Part shown: in pieces, positions 7,080 to 32,142 of the stretch
Position numbering within the stretch: position 1 is the stretch's first letter
Layout of the letters: each line of letters starts with the position of its first letter
From: a virus
DNA length: 64,000 nt
Virus record (IMG/VR): IMGVR_UViG_3300037540_000302
Coordinates: 1-64,000 of that record
Strand: one strand, 5' to 3'
Position numbers and translations under genes: made by a program
Notes under the pieces: generated by a model
Told to the model about the DNA's origin: nothing
Databases searched by the model: none
The model's input: only the letters and a program-made list of their open reading frames with translations

Positions 7080-8417
7080 TTACTGAGTGAGATATTGATA
7101 ATCCTGTAAGAATCTTTCAATTCCATCTATCCCTTCCGTAAAAGCTTGCATTCGTGGTGATTCTTTAGCTTCAAGAGTCTCTTCACCTTCCTTAACATCT
7201 GGTATACCCAATTTCTCCTCAAACCAGGACTTGCCAATACTTGCGCCTAACTTAACGGCTTCTCTCATAGCTTCAACCCAATCTTTGGGATCTGCTGCTT
7301 CTGGCCGAACTATATTCCATTTAGGATATACTGGATTTTGAAAATTAAGATCGCAAAGCTGTTTTATTATTTCGTGGTTAATAAAATATTCAAGCCCCAT
7401 AATGTAAGAATCTATTAAAAAATTAAACAACTGCATTCTCACGCCCTCTTTGGCCTGGCTGCCGGCAGCTTCATTTATTGCAAGCCCCTGCCCATGCAAT
7501 CTATACGCTATAGACAGATTACAAAAATTGATAAGGTTATCATAGGCTTTCCCTGGGTCTTGAAGATTTTTATTTAATATTTCAACTATCACTTTTTTGT
7601 TTAGTCTTATTCCCTTAGCAGCTAAAGGTTTCTTTAATAATTTACCAATTACTTCAAGGTCATCTTCTCCAAGTGTTTCTCCCGCTTCTGGCATTATGAT
7701 AATTTTTGGAAAAACATAACCCTCCCCTAACAATCCCCACAATCTCACCTCTTCTCTTTTCAGCCACCAATAATTATAAACATCATTATAAATGCCCTGG
7801 CCATGGGGATTACTGTAGGCTGCCCCATATGTCATATATTTAAATTTGCGTGGATCAAGTGGAATGCCATTCCAACAATCATTCATTGAAATTCCCCAAT
7901 TATCATTAGGATTATAATTTATTTGCCATAATCCATTAGCCTCTTGTTTAAAACAAAACTTTGAAGGTGGACGCACTAATATCCCACCCAATGATCCATC
8001 AAGAACCCAATGAAATCCATCTTGTATGTATAACAATTCAGTAAATGAATTGCCCAATTGAATAGCACCTAAAATATCTTTTAATTTTTCCATCCAGTTT
8101 GATATGGCCTTGAATTGCTCTTCAATAAACTGTGCCTCTCCTTTATCTCCCTCTCTTTTTTCTATAACTGTATCTAAGCCTATAATACGAGCGACTAATG
8201 TATACCATAAGCCTGCTAAGACAGGATCGGATTGATGCATTTTTTGTACTGCCTCTTCTTTTGTTCGGAAATCAGACCTCACTCCCAATACTTCATTTGG
8301 ATCTTCCGGTTCATCACTACAGAAAGTAAACCTATCACTTTCCGCTAAAAATGCTTTATTAATTCCCGTTTCTAATCCTTTACTCTCTTGATTTTTTGTT
8401 TCTATTATATTTGCCAT
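7080..8417 (-). CDS. Portal protein, DUF935 / Mu gp29-like
   Basis: At 445 residues it forms the dodecameric ring through which DNA enters and leaves the head. Family features seen are the N-terminal run ending in DPVLAGLWYTL, the central GNSFTELLYIQDGFHWV, RPPSKFCF, YNYWWLKREEVRLWG, then the C-terminal region with PEAADPKDWVEAMREAVKLG and IGKSWFEEKLGIPD, all as in DUF935 portals. It follows the large terminase directly. Its ATG lies 6 bases after a TATAAT, so it should be made from its own leaderless transcript as well as any readthrough. Confidence 0.9.
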   Translation of the reverse strand: MANIIETKNQESKGLETGINKAFLAESDRFTFCSDEPEDPNEVLGVRSDFRTKEEAVQKMHQSDPVLAGLWYTLVARIIGLDTVIEKREGDKGEAQFIEEQFKAISNWMEKLKDILGAIQLGNSFTELLYIQDGFHWVLDGSLGGILVRPPSKFCFKQEANGLWQINYNPNDNWGISMNDCWNGIPLDPRKFKYMTYGAAYSNPHGQGIYNDVYNYWWLKREEVRLWGLLGEGYVFPKIIIMPEAGETLGEDDLEVIGKLLKKPLAAKGIRLNKKVIVEILNKNLQDPGKAYDNLINFCNLSIAYRLHGQGLAINEAAGSQAKEGVRMQLFNFLIDSYIMGLEYFINHEIIKQLCDLNFQNPVYPKWNIVRPEAADPKDWVEAMREAVKLGASIGKSWFEEKLGIPDVKEGEETLEAKESPRMQAFTEGIDGIERFLQDYQYLTQ

Positions 8418-8461: not shown

Positions 8462-9997
8462 TCAAAAGCTCATCTTTTCATATAGTTCGCTTTTATATAT
8501 TTCGGCTGGTTTAGATGATTTTTTTTGGATGGGATTGATGTAATGTAAAACAAAATAACGCGTTTCATCCTGAGTGTGATTATTTTTATCAATAGGTTTT
8601 CCCTTTTTATTTAACTTATAGCTAAAATATTCCCGTCGGCTTGCCTTGCAGTGTTTTGCTATATAAAACATTGGCCTGCCTATAACGGGCGATAATGCAC
8701 CTTTTACTTTTTCGATGCCAACATCAATTGTATTATCGGCGGCAATCATGCGAATGCCTTCGGGCTTTGCCTCTTCCCATTCTTTCCGCAAATCAGAGCG
8801 TGATGGATCATAAACGCATTCTTTAATATAATTCCACCATGCACGCTTTTTACATATTTCTATAACTTTTGGATTTGATGTATTTTCTTCAAATATTTCA
8901 TCAACTCTTGCCCATGCGTTAAGAGCAGTATTTCTGAAATCTTGCCATACTCCTATAGAAAATGCATCAGTACCGCCCCAATCTATAGAAAGATAAACCA
9001 TTCTGTCGGGGCTAAAATGTACATCAATGAAATGATGCTCTTGAATTTCATGACCATATACTAAATCGGGATGGCCGATTTTATTACAAAACCATTCCGT
9101 TTCTATACTAAAAAGTGATAGAGTTTGTAGCTTTGTCAAGAAATCTTTTATTGTATAATATCCTGTGGCTTCTTTCATTTGCTTACCGGGGCAATATGGA
9201 GATAGTGGACAGGTGCTGCAAGAGTAATCTGTGCAGGCTTCGAGGCATTCCCAAATACACCAACGATATATCCGGGCATCTGGATTTTTTGAAGCACGCT
9301 CAAGCTGTTCATCCATATTTCCACCCATAACATGGTTAGTAGATGAAATTTGGAGGCAAGCTGGTATCCCATTTTTTGACATTGGTTGCGATAAAGCAAT
9401 TTGCAATATATTGTCATCCATTACGTCAACTTCATCAAGTGCTGTAGTGTTGGGATGTGGACCTCTGGTTGACTTTTCAGATGCAGTCAAAATGCCTATT
9501 TTGGCTCCATTTTTAAGCCTCACCTTTTCAATTAATCTTTGTCCCTTTACATATCTTTCTTCTAAATAACATCTTCCATTATTTGCTCCTATACTCCAAT
9601 AATCAGCCATTGCTTCATAAGCCCTAGAGGATTGTTCTCCACTTCCACCCAGGATAACAATATCCATAAGCTTATTCCAGAGAGATTTTAACCAATTTAT
9701 CAAAGCCAAAAAATATGTTTTACTACCGCTCCTATTAGCCCATACTATTACAACAGAATAGAAGTTCAAAAGCATATCTGATATATAATCGAATTGAGAG
9801 CAATGATCTTCATTTTCACACATGCGCTTAGTAGATACCTTTATGGGTAATATGCTGTGCTTATACCTATTGTCTGCGTTCGTAAGTCTTATTATGGATT
9901 CCCTGTCCTTTACTCCATGTTTAATATACCACATTATTGAGACAAGTCTATTTGCTTCTATTTTGGCTCTTTTGATTTCATCCTGGGTATAATCCAT
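8462..9997 (-). CDS. terL: Terminase large subunit
   Basis: At 511 residues it is the ATP-driven packaging motor and headful/cos nuclease. A degenerate Walker A, WANRSGSKT, lies at residues 86-94, Walker B TTALDEVD at 184-191, a coupling region SSTNH follows, and the RNase H-like nuclease begins with LSIDWGGTDAF near residue 330. A CTDYSCSTCPLSPYC cluster between ATPase and nuclease resembles a zinc-binding insertion seen in some terminases. It is followed by the portal and preceded by a tRNA-like gene and P63C gene. The start is ATG 5 bases after a TATCAT -10 box. Confidence 0.93.
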   Translation of the reverse strand: MDYTQDEIKRAKIEANRLVSIMWYIKHGVKDRESIIRLTNADNRYKHSILPIKVSTKRMCENEDHCSQFDYISDMLLNFYSVVIVWANRSGSKTYFLALINWLKSLWNKLMDIVILGGSGEQSSRAYEAMADYWSIGANNGRCYLEERYVKGQRLIEKVRLKNGAKIGILTASEKSTRGPHPNTTALDEVDVMDDNILQIALSQPMSKNGIPACLQISSTNHVMGGNMDEQLERASKNPDARIYRWCIWECLEACTDYSCSTCPLSPYCPGKQMKEATGYYTIKDFLTKLQTLSLFSIETEWFCNKIGHPDLVYGHEIQEHHFIDVHFSPDRMVYLSIDWGGTDAFSIGVWQDFRNTALNAWARVDEIFEENTSNPKVIEICKKRAWWNYIKECVYDPSRSDLRKEWEEAKPEGIRMIAADNTIDVGIEKVKGALSPVIGRPMFYIAKHCKASRREYFSYKLNKKGKPIDKNNHTQDETRYFVLHYINPIQKKSSKPAEIYKSELYEKMSF

Positions 9998-10031: not shown

Positions 10032-10212
10032 TTATGGTTATTTTGTTGAATGTTAGATTATCTTTATTTAATGACAAATAATTTAGGGTAATGACCCATC
10101 TATAGGTAGTGAAAAAAATAAAAAACATTTGATGCAGATTTTTATTTTTAATAAATTTGTAAAAAAAAAGTTGACAAATAAAAAAAATCATGCTATTTAT
10201 TAAAAATTGAAG

Positions 10213-10281
10213 TGGAGCGGCCGGGAGTCGAACCCGGATTGTTGGATGCGAAGCCCAAATTGTTAACCGTAACACCGCCCC
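10213..10281 (-). tRNA. tRNA-like gene, possible tRNA-Arg (TCG)
   Basis: A 69-base cloverleaf can be drawn: acceptor GGGGCGG/CCGCTCC, T-arm CCGGG-TTCGACT-CCCGG, anticodon arm TTGGG-CTTCGCA-TCCAA, a 4-base variable loop and discriminator A. CCA is not encoded. The anticodon reads TCG, but base 37 would be C instead of a purine and the D-arm region (16 bases) is short, so identity and function are uncertain. A further 9 bp of perfect pairing (AATTGAAGT/ACTTCAATT) extends the acceptor stem outward. It sits between the P63C gene and terL. Confidence 0.6.
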
Positions 10282-12709: not shown

Positions 12710-12922
12710 TCACTTATCCCAATTATATAATTCTTTTGCTATCCCAAAAAGACCTACAGGTGCCATAATTATTGCAAATAAGCTAGCCCATCCTAAAATT
12801 TTTTTTGCTAAATTTTCATTAAATACTGAGATTGTTATTCCAAATATCAATAATATAAAAGCAATCGTTCCTAAAATATGTAGAATAAAGCCAATTATAT
12901 CTTTGTCTTTAAAATAATACAT
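12710..12922 (-). CDS. Two-TM membrane protein, possible RiPP immunity protein
   Basis: Seventy residues with two strong membrane segments (about 8-30 and 42-62) joined by a short loop, and a charged C-terminus. Good SD AAAGGAG. It is the first gene after the RiPP precursor on the same strand. Small multi-TM proteins next to bacteriocin precursors often give self-protection, so immunity is a reasonable but unproven guess. A holin-like or housekeeping role is equally compatible with sequence alone. Confidence 0.6.
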   Translation of the reverse strand: MYYFKDKDIIGFILHILGTIAFILLIFGITISVFNENLAKKILGWASLFAIIMAPVGLFGIAKELYNWDK

Positions 12923-13035: not shown

Positions 13036-13275
13036 TTACGCTGGGCATATAACGCAACTCGTGTCCCATGGCCATGTATCACACATGGCGCCGCATGTCT
13101 CGGTATCGGGAGGACATCCATATGTAGGGCAATGTGGGTTACATGTAATTGTGCACCCAGCTGGATCGCAACTAAGCCACGGATCTGTACCTCCTTTAAT
13201 TTTGCCCATTATATTACCATTCAAATTAGTAACCGTAATTTTGTTTAACTTTAATCTCTTAAATTTTGATTTCAT
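13036..13275 (-). CDS. RiPP precursor peptide, class I lanthipeptide-like
   Basis: The 79-residue peptide has an evident leader and core. Leader residues 1-29 contain KLNKITVTNLN and end in MGKIKGG, the pattern of Bacteroidota-type class I lanthipeptide leaders with a double-Gly cleavage site. Core residues 30-79 contain nine Cys (36, 41, 45, 49, 54, 61, 65, 74, 77) and ten Ser/Thr, with Pro, Trp and Gly, as expected for lanthionine or other cross-links. Base composition is clearly more GC-rich than the neighbours, suggesting acquisition. No dehydratase, cyclase, radical SAM or C39 transporter is present in the window, so maturation would depend on host enzymes. SD AAAGGAG precedes ATG. An alternative is an unmodified disulfide-rich secreted peptide. 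Confidence 0.75.
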   Translation of the reverse strand: MKSKFKRLKLNKITVTNLNGNIMGKIKGGTDPWLSCDPAGCTITCNPHCPTYGCPPDTETCGAMCDTWPWDTSCVICPA

Positions 13276-13365
13276 TTATTTTACTCCTTTAAAAATGTTT
13301 TTTTTCTTTCCCACCATAACCCCGCATCCCCCTACACATCCAGGAGATTCCCCTTAAAAATAAAT

Positions 13366-13842
13366 TTATTCATCTTCATCTTTCATCATGCCATCAATAG
13401 ATTTTTCTTCATCTCCCATCTTATCCAGGATTTTATCAAATGGAGTTTCTCTAAGTTCCACTTGCGATCTATCTGTAAATTTATGATGGTGCTTCAGCAA
13501 AAATATTGCCATTGTAGTATCTATATTTTTGTGTATCGCAAATTCCTGTAATTTCATTTCCTGTAATTTCTTTGCTTTTTTTAGATACTGTAAAAACGAC
13601 TTGAAATTATCTTTCAAATATGTTATGGCATGTGGGTATAGGTCCTTTTCAACTACAAGGAATTTCTCAAAAAATATATTGCCAGCATGATCGTCTGTCA
13701 ATTCATTTTTATTTTTAGGGTCTTGAATATATTTAGGCATTAGCCATTCTATTAAATCTTTCCCTAATTCAATAACTATTTCTTCCGTCCACTTCACGGC
13801 ATTATTATTTCCAGGCTGGCCACCTTCTTTTTTTTTATCCAT
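13366..13842 (-). CDS. Putative terminase small subunit
   Basis: The N-terminal KKEGGQPGNNNAVKW is the usual opening of phage small terminase and gp3-like packaging proteins, and the C-terminal pattern TTMAIFLLKHHHKFTDRSQVE is the family signature where a helix precedes the oligomerisation region. It would bind the packaging site and present DNA to the large subunit. It lies about 3.4 kb upstream of terL on the same strand. I start it at ATG 13840-13842, directly after the upstream stop. A longer in-frame start at 13860 overlaps the ParB-like gene. Confidence 0.7.
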   Translation of the reverse strand: MDKKKEGGQPGNNNAVKWTEEIVIELGKDLIEWLMPKYIQDPKNKNELTDDHAGNIFFEKFLVVEKDLYPHAITYLKDNFKSFLQYLKKAKKLQEMKLQEFAIHKNIDTTMAIFLLKHHHKFTDRSQVELRETPFDKILDKMGDEEKSIDGMMKDEDE

Positions 13843-13843
13843 C

Positions 13844-14365
13844 TTAAAATTCACACCCACATTTTGGACACTTATGTTTTTTGAACAGCTTTGTATTTAC
13901 ATCCTTATCTTTGAATTTCACATCCTCAAAATAGTTCTCCCTTATAGACTTCATGCCCTTATGTTTCTTTGTAAGGCTGTCAAGATTCAAATTGTGCACT
14001 GTTATTTCTTTATAGGCACCATCTTCCGTAATTTTTGTATATTTTTCTGCATATAAAAATATCAATTCCACGGCTTCTGTCATATCCTTACAACCAATCC
14101 ATTCGCCCGATAATAAATCAGGTACATCCTCCCCCAATCCTATCTGCTCATTTAAAACAGCTTGCAAGTGGCAACCATCTAAAATCCATAATGCATCAGT
14201 GCTTTTTTGCCACAATCTATATGATCGTATAACCCCATGCTGTTTCAAAGACTGTACCAATCGCTCCTTATCCTCTTTATAAAAATCTTTTAAATCATCT
14301 ACTTGTAACCACTTTGCTTTTCTCCAATCGAATAGCCCTTGCTTAATTATTCTATTTTCTATCAT
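13844..14365 (-). CDS. ParB/Srx-like domain protein
   Basis: The 173-residue protein has WLQVDDLKDFYKED, a run with LVQSLKQHGVIRSYRLW, then WILDGCHLQAVLNE, matching the ParB N-terminal nucleotide-binding fold in which the GxxR/H motif is here DGCH. A C-terminal CPKCGC adds a metal knuckle. Phage ParB-like proteins upstream of terminase are often nucleases or methylation-linked adaptors. No ParA is present, so partition is unlikely. ATG is 6 bases after a TATTAT box. Confidence 0.7.
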   Translation of the reverse strand: MIENRIIKQGLFDWRKAKWLQVDDLKDFYKEDKERLVQSLKQHGVIRSYRLWQKSTDALWILDGCHLQAVLNEQIGLGEDVPDLLSGEWIGCKDMTEAVELIFLYAEKYTKITEDGAYKEITVHNLNLDSLTKKHKGMKSIRENYFEDVKFKDKDVNTKLFKKHKCPKCGCEF

Positions 14366-18186: not shown

Positions 18187-19296
18187 TTATTTCTTTTTTA
18201 ATCCCTTCCAATATTGTCTTGCGAATCGTTTCGCTTCACTTTTAAACGTCTTATTTGGAATGTACTTCACGTCATACGGCGACATAAATTTATTAAACTC
18301 TCTAATATAATCAAATAGCATGTCCTGGTACAACCCATAATCATAAGTTATATTATCGCATTTTTTCCTGATATGGCCAGTCCTTTTTAGCCAATGCTCA
18401 AAGGGCAATCCAGGATTAATCCCCGATATAATAGCCTTCGTGGTATTTTTTATAGTCCCTTTCATGTTACGTAATTCCCTGCCTTTCTTGAAACATGCGC
18501 AAAGCTTCTTTAAATCTTTCTGACTCAAAAATCCATCCGGGTCGCAATGATAACCCAATAATAGTATTAGGAATTTGTCCGGCTTTTTCGTTTTCGACTT
18601 CTTTAAATGCCAAAATACATCGCCTCCCTCAAAGACTCCGAAAACCTCTCTTTTGGTTCTATTATTCAAATACGTTATTTGATCATAGAATGGCGTCCCA
18701 ATACCTATAGGTATCCGTTTGTCAAGCTTATGACAAAAGTTTACCATCTGCACGCTCCATTCACGTGCCCCACTTATCCAAGCATTGTATATTTCCCAAT
18801 TTAGGCATAGTAATGTATTGTCGGGTAGCATAGGGGTGAGCTTCTTTAAGAATTCCTTTTGCTTAGATATTCCATAATTAAAAAAGCCTCGCACCAGGTT
18901 ACGTCCTTTTGGCACCGGCCCACCGTTTTTAGAGTTCCACAGATGCGAATCCGCAAACCAGCGCCGCAAGGATGAACCGTCTATAATAATAACAAGGGCA
19001 CAGCCAATCCCATCAAGTCTTTCCGCTTCATTCTTGATATAAGCGAATGCTGCTTCATTCCACCCGGCCCAATTAGATTCAATTTTAGACCCTTCCTTAT
19101 AAAGCCATGGACATGTCTTTGCGCCTATGAGAAATTGCATTTGGATATAAAAGGTATTTACGCCGGATTTTATCATTTTTCCAAATAGTGGCCCCTTGGG
19201 CACACCATTTTGACCACTCGCGAAAAGATATTTTATCTCTTCACCGACCCCGACCTTAAAGAATCGCGGGTTTTCTTTAGAGATTGTTAATTTCAT
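18187..19296 (-). CDS. Putative glycoside-hydrolase-like TIM-barrel protein
   Basis: A 369-residue soluble protein. Alternating strands and helices fit a TIM barrel: VNTFYIQMQ, CALVIIIDG, HLWNSKNGGP, NTLLCLNWEIYNAW, RIPIGIGTPF, REVFGVFEGG and KFLILLLGYH. The NWE and FEGG strand ends are where catalytic acids sit in GH5-type enzymes, and WNSKNGGP recalls cellulase-like phage proteins. No signal peptide is visible, so it would act in the cytoplasm or in the virion. Base composition is richer in G+C than its neighbours and it is flanked by a hairpin and promoter, suggesting an acquired accessory gene. Substrate unknown. Confidence 0.55.
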   Translation of the reverse strand: MKLTISKENPRFFKVGVGEEIKYLFASGQNGVPKGPLFGKMIKSGVNTFYIQMQFLIGAKTCPWLYKEGSKIESNWAGWNEAAFAYIKNEAERLDGIGCALVIIIDGSSLRRWFADSHLWNSKNGGPVPKGRNLVRGFFNYGISKQKEFLKKLTPMLPDNTLLCLNWEIYNAWISGAREWSVQMVNFCHKLDKRIPIGIGTPFYDQITYLNNRTKREVFGVFEGGDVFWHLKKSKTKKPDKFLILLLGYHCDPDGFLSQKDLKKLCACFKKGRELRNMKGTIKNTTKAIISGINPGLPFEHWLKRTGHIRKKCDNITYDYGLYQDMLFDYIREFNKFMSPYDVKYIPNKTFKSEAKRFARQYWKGLKKK

Positions 19297-23686: not shown

Positions 23687-24424
23687 TTATATCTCCTGGC
23701 CATCGCTTATATTTATTTCGTAATAAAAATCAATAATTTTCCCATTTAATATGACTTTAAAATTATTCTTAATAAATAGCGGTATTTTATTCTCTTCACA
23801 AAAATGTATTAATTTAATAGCCCATTCCCATGATGGATGAAAATTGCTTTTCCTTTCAGGGGTTTCGGTGCCTACCATAATCCAATTAAACCGATTAAGT
23901 ATTTTTTTAAAGTCCTTTAATTCTACTTCTTCTTGAATAGGCTCAATTGAAAAAAACCAATTTTTACCATAATTATTCTCAAAAAGGTTAGTCATTTTAA
24001 GTTTTCTTAAGTCTGCATTTTTTGTTATCGTTATGCCTAACCAGCAATTAGGAGGGAATATAAAATGCTTATATATCTCTGGATATTTCGTTAAAAATAT
24101 AAAGGTATGATTTTCGTTTTTGTTTAAATCAGTCACCTTCAAAACTCTTTGTATCCATTCAGGTTTCCAGAATCTTATGTCACTCATGGAGCCTACAAAA
24201 ATCCTTGAAGGTTTTTTTGGGAATGATTTTTGGAAATTATTTTCATTCCATTGGACATCTTGAAATGACTCCATTTTTTTGTATTGGGGTAGATAATCCT
24301 TGAAGCGATTATAATATTTCTCAGCATAACACTGAAACTTCTTTTTTTGTGTGCAGTTTCCCTTACATCCATCGACCGGATTCCAAATATAGTCACACCA
24401 TTCAATACCTGATTCACTTATCAT
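23687..24424 (-). CDS. DUF5131 family protein (phage Gp37/Gp68-like)
   Basis: 245 residues with the N-terminal family signature IEWCDYIWNPVDGCKGNC and a further CYAEKYYNR, then IFVGSMSDIRF and FLTKYPE, the usual DUF5131 landmarks. The three-Cys arrangement suggests radical-SAM-like chemistry, although the exact CxxxCxxC of canonical enzymes is not visible. Role in phages is unknown. Confidence 0.85.
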   Translation of the reverse strand: MISESGIEWCDYIWNPVDGCKGNCTQKKKFQCYAEKYYNRFKDYLPQYKKMESFQDVQWNENNFQKSFPKKPSRIFVGSMSDIRFWKPEWIQRVLKVTDLNKNENHTFIFLTKYPEIYKHFIFPPNCWLGITITKNADLRKLKMTNLFENNYGKNWFFSIEPIQEEVELKDFKKILNRFNWIMVGTETPERKSNFHPSWEWAIKLIHFCEENKIPLFIKNNFKVILNGKIIDFYYEINISDGQEI

Positions 24425-31237: not shown

Positions 31238-31432
31238 TTATCTTCTGCTTTTTCTTATTATTAACTCAATTCTAAATTCCCAAAACAAAAAAATAAAACC
31301 AAAATGAATTTCATCATTAAGCCCAATTGTTGAATTTCTTAAAAAAGATAAGCTAATATAGATGGTAGGAATTAAAAATAATTGCTTTATATAACGTGCA
31401 ATAATTATTATCCGTTTATACTCTTTTATCAT
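31238..31432 (-). CDS. Membrane protein, 64 aa
   Basis: Two hydrophobic segments (about 8-30 and 43-57) with basic ends, likely two membrane passes. SD GGAG. Start overlaps the 31429 ORF stop. Confidence 0.6.
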   Translation of the reverse strand: MIKEYKRIIIIARYIKQLFLIPTIYISLSFLRNSTIGLNDEIHFGFIFLFWEFRIELIIRKSRR

Positions 31433-32142
31433 CTTTGCTCCTTTTTTAGATTTTTAATAATGCGGAATAACCGGCATGGGGTTGGATACTTGTGCTTACT
31501 TTGTGAATCGCGCGTGGTAAACATATCCTTTGGGCGCCTGCTTGTCAAGATTTCCCCGATATTATATTGCCTGCTTGACCGGCATATCACGGAATGCTCT
31601 CGGTTATTCAAATTAATGCCGTGGGGCGCAACGGTTCGGGGGATGGGGAAATCTATTCCGGTTAGGAGGCCATCTATTCGTTTATCCTCCCGTACTTGTC
31701 TCAATTCTCTATTGTAGTTACTGCGCCCCTTAATTATGGGATTCATAGTATTGCAAGCACCCGGTGAGCACCTTTCCATATGGGACATTTGTTTGACACT
31801 CACCGGGGCCTCTAATGTATTAATGCAAAACCCGGCAGGACTTTGAACCGTGTGATCAAAAAATATAGGAGGTTTTTTGAATTTGGCCTTTGCGCCTGCC
31901 GGGCTTTTATTTTTATTGGAGGGAAATAGTTCTCTTATTGCCTTATCAAATTTTTCTTTATCTTCCTTAAGCTCCTGCTCGTTTTTGCGTTGCCTATGAT
32001 CTTCATTGCAGATTCTTTTCCCACAATGAATCCCCATAAAAAATGTCAGGATAAGAAGGATGCACCATATTATAAAAAATAAAGTAAAATAATCGCACTT
32101 AAAATCCTGCGCTGGGGTTATGGGATCGCCGTGCTTTCTCAT
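31429..32142 (-). CDS. Membrane-anchored ORF with highly structured 3-prime region
   Basis: 238-codon frame. Residues 1-90 look protein-like: transmembrane segment FFIIWCILLILTFFMG near 23-38, then CGKRIC and a charged coiled coil. Residues 90-237 have unlike composition and are encoded by a GC-rich stretch full of perfect inverted repeats (31465-31903). The frame may be real, may be an RNA element read through, or a fusion of both. Start overlaps RusA by 4 bases. Confidence 0.5.
   Translation of the reverse strand: MRKHGDPITPAQDFKCDYFTLFFIIWCILLILTFFMGIHCGKRICNEDHRQRKNEQELKEDKEKFDKAIRELFPSNKNKSPAGAKAKFKKPPIFFDHTVQSPAGFCINTLEAPVSVKQMSHMERCSPGACNTMNPIIKGRSNYNRELRQVREDKRIDGLLTGIDFPIPRTVAPHGINLNNREHSVICRSSRQYNIGEILTSRRPKDMFTTRDSQSKHKYPTPCRLFRIIKNLKKEQR
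31465..31903 (-). ncRNA. Possible large structured RNA or palindrome-rich element
   Basis: Perfect inverted repeats: CCCGGCAGG/CCTGCCGGG (31831-31839, 31895-31903), CCCGGTGAG/CTCACCGGG (31760-31768, 31799-31807), GGGGCGCA/TGCGCCCC (31623-31630, 31722-31729) enclosing GGAGG/CCTCC, CGGCAT/ATGCCG (31580-31585, 31616-31621), CTTGAC/GTCAAG (31544-31549, 31574-31579), and long-range GAATAACCG/CGGTTATTC (31465-31473, 31601-31609). The density and nesting suggest an ornate RNA of the GOLLD/ROOL kind, but I cannot match it to any known family. On the minus strand several helices are nested. Confidence 0.55.

Follow-up and report, generated by a model that had tools for sequence, protein, structure and literature searches.

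The phage genome IMGVR_UViG_3300037540_000302 encodes a short peptide that, judged from its leader and core, is very probably a class I lanthipeptide precursor of the L1a type, and none of the enzymes that would finish such a peptide was detected alongside it. These sequences make maturation in trans the likeliest, though unproven, route, and the reading of a phage-borne L1a-type precursor matured by host enzymes is given a probability of about one in two. The window analyzed here is the whole stretch of DNA presented, spanning the first 64,000 nucleotides of the record.

Leader family and core composition

The precursor gene (13036..13275, minus strand) is an ORF of 79 codons with an ATG start and a strong ribosome-binding site, the Shine-Dalgarno sequence AAAGGAG (13284..13290, minus strand) located 8 nt 5' of the ATG. 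The peptide reads MKSKFKRLKLNKITVTNLNGNIMGKIKGG then TDPWLSCDPAGCTITCNPHCPTYGCPPDTETCGAMCDTWPWDTSCVICPA. Its leader (29 codons; 13189..13275, minus strand) presents an LxLxKx5L motif in the form L8xL10xK12x5L18, hydrophobic residues at positions -4, -7 and -12, and GG at -2/-1, and is followed by a core (50 codons; 13039..13188, minus strand) harboring 9 Cys and 10 Ser/Thr. The ORF coordinates, the length of 79 aa, the GG site, the 50-residue core and its residue counts, all put forward in an initial sequence-only reading of this DNA, were re-derived from the sequence and were correct throughout.

That reading had assigned the leader to the class I lanthipeptide style of Bacteroidota, and profile searches support the assignment. 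The lant_leader_L1a model (NF038153) matches residues 1-29 over its full length, from Met1 to GG, with a score of 22.2 bits (E=1.2e-4), just 0.2 bits above its curated cut-off of 22 bits. The TIGR04149 model, proposed together with L1a as a suitable search, yields only 12.8 bits, under its cut-off of 25; the pinensin leader model yields 9.3 bits, also under its own cut-off, and Pfam and PHROGs profile searches returned no match for the precursor peptide. The motif LxLxKx5L ending in GG has been described for Bacteroidetes class I precursors, whose clusters often include a C39 protease (PMC7268733), and the phage leader fits both the motif and the terminal GG. With our own leader HMM, derived from 16 non-redundant cellular leaders, the phage peptide reaches 27.9 bits; the best of 20,000 shuffled leaders attains 17.5 bits, and the runner-up among 1,250 frames of the window stops at 4.9 bits. 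Since the HMM was trained on NF038153 hits, these values constitute a control of specificity, not independent proof of family.

The core is compatible with the same assignment. On its C-terminal side, every Ser/Thr is followed by a Cys at a distance of 3-8 residues, a spacing that would permit lanthionine formation, and such ring-forming Ser/Thr-Cys spacing is among the features that define class I L1a precursors. No other called ORF has as high a Cys density as the precursor gene (11.4% versus a mean of 1.9%), and the Cys enrichment of the core is significant (binomial P = 5e-7). It could be argued that the gene encodes a Cys-rich phage protein, perhaps metal-binding, whose N-terminus resembles a leader by chance, given the borderline NCBIfam score, the many small Cys-rich ORFs in this phage and the lack of homologues. 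The shuffle and window controls, however, fall far below 27.9 bits, and the match spans exactly from Met1 to GG with the Cys-rich core directly after, making a chance resemblance very unlikely.

Cellular L1a loci and the missing maturation enzymes

Among 395 Bacteroidota genomes, nine were positive for NF038153, and in all nine a LanB homologue was found within ~10 kb of the L1a leader, together with LanC in most and a C39 transporter in several. The association extends to a cellular precursor (L067) whose score on our own HMM, 27.2 bits, is no better than that of the phage peptide and which adjoins LanB/LanC. A strict leader pattern applied to a genome collection of 257 Gb gave a single match, at a Flagellimonas class I LanB/LanC locus. 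The C-terminal endings of L067 (LCVCPA) and of another cellular precursor, L051 (TCVSCP), resemble that of the phage peptide (SCVICPA), a similarity that is suggestive only. One cellular locus (L070) contains an array of at least 17 near-identical L1a precursors, with cores almost free of Cys, adjoining LanB and a C39 transporter.

The phage record is 67,550 bases long, and its two ends are identical over 127 bp (positions 1-127 of the window equal the last 127 bases), so the genome is apparently complete, as a circularised assembly of ~67,423 bp. Searches of the record detected no LanC, no C39 transporter and no radical SAM protein (PF04055). LanB gave no match in the record, in a family search lacking a positive control in the same run, and LanB probes did not match the 64-kb window either; the LanB model does work at the cellular L1a loci. 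The notion of a bare precursor, advanced in the sequence-only reading, is thus supported in an apparently complete genome. A DUF5131 protein at 23687-24424, which we take to be of the phage Gp37/Gp68 type, has a Cys-rich N-terminus and no PF04055 match. By sequence the peptide groups with L1a-type precursors, while LanB and LanC in the same cluster, the feature that also characterizes that family, are not found in the phage; nor does the phage present the combination of an above-cut-off TIGR04149 score and a radical SAM partner that identifies TIGR04149 rSAM-modified RiPPs.

In an apparently complete viral genome with no finishing enzymes detected, the precursor would need to borrow, or perhaps block, host machinery. 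If matured in trans, the leader would dock on a LanB-type dehydratase and a LanC cyclase of the host during infection, core Ser/Thr residues would lose water and form (methyl)lanthionine bridges with Cys, and a C39-type protease/transporter of the host would cleave after GG and export the polycyclic peptide, which might then benefit the phage or the infected cell, for instance against competing bacteria. The linkage of the L1a leader to LanB in 9/9 genomes, including the low-scoring L067, argues for this reading; the 0.2-bit NCBIfam margin, a core without homologue and a Shine-Dalgarno usage that speaks against Bacteroidia argue against it.

A rival reading is export without modification. The peptide carries the GG leader expected of a C39-exported double-glycine peptide, and the leader could serve only for C39 cleavage and export, with the core acting as a disulfide-bonded bacteriocin or signal. 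The combination of GG and hydrophobic residues at -4/-7/-12 is a general C39 substrate pattern, and C39 proteins are widespread (8/14 control genomes) whereas LanB is rare in the controls. We nevertheless consider an unmodified peptide unlikely, because the best-matching family is specifically L1a, with TIGR04149 and pinensin below their cut-offs, because that leader is LanB-linked wherever it was found among the nine genomes, and because nine Cys would be odd in a purely disulfide-bonded peptide. Blocking of host machinery, in turn, would make the leader a decoy that occupies host RiPP enzymes or the exporter and thereby prevents the production of a lanthipeptide harmful to the phage. Anti-phage lanthipeptides have been reported in Streptomyces (review PMC12360287), lanthipeptide clusters occur near defence systems (PMC12715929), and the gene sits among essential packaging genes. 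A Cys/Ser/Thr-rich core would, however, be unnecessary for such a role, and there is no evidence for lanthipeptide defence in the host, so that we regard counter-defence as quite unlikely.

Genomic context and base composition

The precursor gene lies between the genes for the small and large terminase subunits. Its upstream neighbor is a small terminase-like gene, terS (13366..13860, minus strand; phrog_309 E=2.4e-5), and terL (8462..9997, minus strand; phrog_10250 E=2.4e-12) and a portal protein gene (7080..8417, minus strand; phrog_113 E=7e-41) are found downstream. Directly downstream, after a gap of 113 bp, a gene at 12710..12922 (minus strand) encodes a protein of 70 aa in which hydropathy shows two hydrophobic segments and for which profile searches gave no family over cut-off; as a speculative guess, it may be a candidate immunity protein or membrane partner. 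Neither an intrinsic terminator nor structured RNA was found around the precursor gene. Its position between terS and terL, without a terminator nearby, suggests that it may be expressed with the late genes, which would make superinfection exclusion, a role contemplated in the sequence-only reading, less likely in a lysogen. A search directed at tyrosine integrases detected none, and, considering this together with the terS-terL position, a lysogen-expressed exclusion gene is not favored. A single tRNA-Arg gene (TCG) is located at 10212-10281, between terL and a gene with a P63C domain.

The precursor gene has a GC content of 42%, with 52% in the core and 24% in the leader. The GC difference from neighboring genes had been interpreted as support for acquisition, an argument that does not survive comparison with a codon-usage null: the same amino acids encoded with phage codon usage predict 41.6% (P=0.29 for the gene and P=0.10 for the core by itself). 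The amino-acid content hence accounts for the GC of the gene, and GC as a sign of acquisition was ruled out. Two other genes, at 31429-32142 (z=6.7) and 18187-19296 (z=6.3), show a strong excess of GC3 over phage codon usage and no Pfam match, which makes them stronger candidates than the precursor for recent acquisition. A further reading is that a stray host precursor gene was recently picked up and is carried functionless, for which the lack of relatives and the restriction to a single phage lineage in IMG/VR could be invoked. The ORF, however, is intact and preceded by a strong Shine-Dalgarno site, its codon use fits the phage and it is tightly placed in the packaging region, rendering an orphan pickup decidedly unlikely.

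Host, known systems and relatives

Shine-Dalgarno sites were identified in 72/140 phage genes, with starts partly chosen by these sites, versus 4.6% at random positions, and in 24/60 genes when first-ATG starts were used. The corresponding counts were 0/53 in a Flavobacterium phage, 14/27 in a Helicobacter prophage and 36/51 in a Faecalibacterium phage. Bacteroidia, and mostly Chlorobia, lack Shine-Dalgarno sites (PMC6847099, PMC9976891). Such heavy usage argues against a host in Bacteroidia, where the L1a leader is documented, and consequently disfavors the Bacteroidota host that had been expected; from the initial interpretation, the L1a leader, its location on a phage and the absence of enzymes are retained, whereas the host and the GC-based acquisition are not. 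Either the L1a leader exists in a lineage using Shine-Dalgarno sites outside the sample, or a Bacteroidota gene gained a phage-style start. Within our sample of Bacteroidota, no such lineage combining LanB with an L1a leader was found. That a phage infecting a host outside Bacteroidia encodes a bare precursor which, during infection, commandeers, or through a leader decoy jams, the host lanthipeptide machinery is put forward tentatively, as a somewhat doubtful possibility. Capsid, portal and helicase matches are distant, to Helicobacter, Faecalibacterium, Vibrio and others, and the tRNA-Arg gave only a partial match of 26 nt, in Bacteroidota.

The phage peptide shares with class I L1a precursors (NF038153; Walker et al. 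2020, PMC7268733) the leader motif, length, GG junction and Cys/Ser/Thr core. It differs from its cellular counterparts in being encoded by a phage and single-copy, in lacking LanB, LanC and C39 genes nearby, in its Shine-Dalgarno start (such sites precede 0/33 cellular L1a precursor genes) and in its nine Cys, versus six at most in the 33 cellular examples. TIGR04149 rSAM-modified GG peptides have a similar GG leader, but the phage has no radical SAM. Prochlorosin precursors are often encoded far from their LanM synthetase (PMC7268733), a separation of precursor gene and modifying enzyme also seen here and in keeping with maturation in trans. Prochlorosins differ, however, in their Nif11 leader, class II enzyme and chromosomal location. 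Phage-borne bacteriocin clusters such as that of sublancin on SPbeta likewise place a bacteriocin-type peptide gene on a phage, but these clusters come with dedicated genes for modification, export and immunity. If the phage precursor does act through host enzymes, phages may supply only the cheap part of a pathway, the precursor, leaving host enzymes to make the product or using the leader to poison the pathway; RiPP biology would thereby be tied to the conflict between phage and host, enzyme-less precursors would be accounted for, and viral RiPPs would be missed by cluster-based searches. In a partial library of the literature, no paper was found that describes a phage encoding a lanthipeptide precursor by itself.

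Apart from a duplicate contig with 100% identity, searches for homologues of the peptide among phages and plasmids, in IMG/VR and in GTDB genomes gave nothing above chance level. The sequence-only reading had named two outcomes that would count against it: a leader without HMM support, which the above-cut-off NF038153 score contradicts, and an absence of homologues with a conserved GG and Cys pattern, which is what the collections searched show. With no homologue of the core, neither conservation nor selection can be demonstrated. Pattern scans for L1a leaders in IMG/VR phages likewise retrieved only the duplicate contig, the other matches not being leaders; as the stricter pattern recovers 3/33 and the looser ~13/33 known leaders, a minority in both cases, these scans do not establish absence elsewhere. 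No close relative of the phage was found via its terminase, portal and P63C genes, and its terminase and portal have no close IMG/VR relative except on the duplicate contig, making it an orphan phage. A Mu-like gpT capsid and the portal show distant resemblance to Helicobacter and Mushuvirus phages. The duplicate contig, IMGVR_UViG_3300043168_000035, represents the same phage and is identical over 9.3 kb bar one gap of 51 bp, an in-frame deletion of 17 codons inside terL (window positions about 9481-9531).
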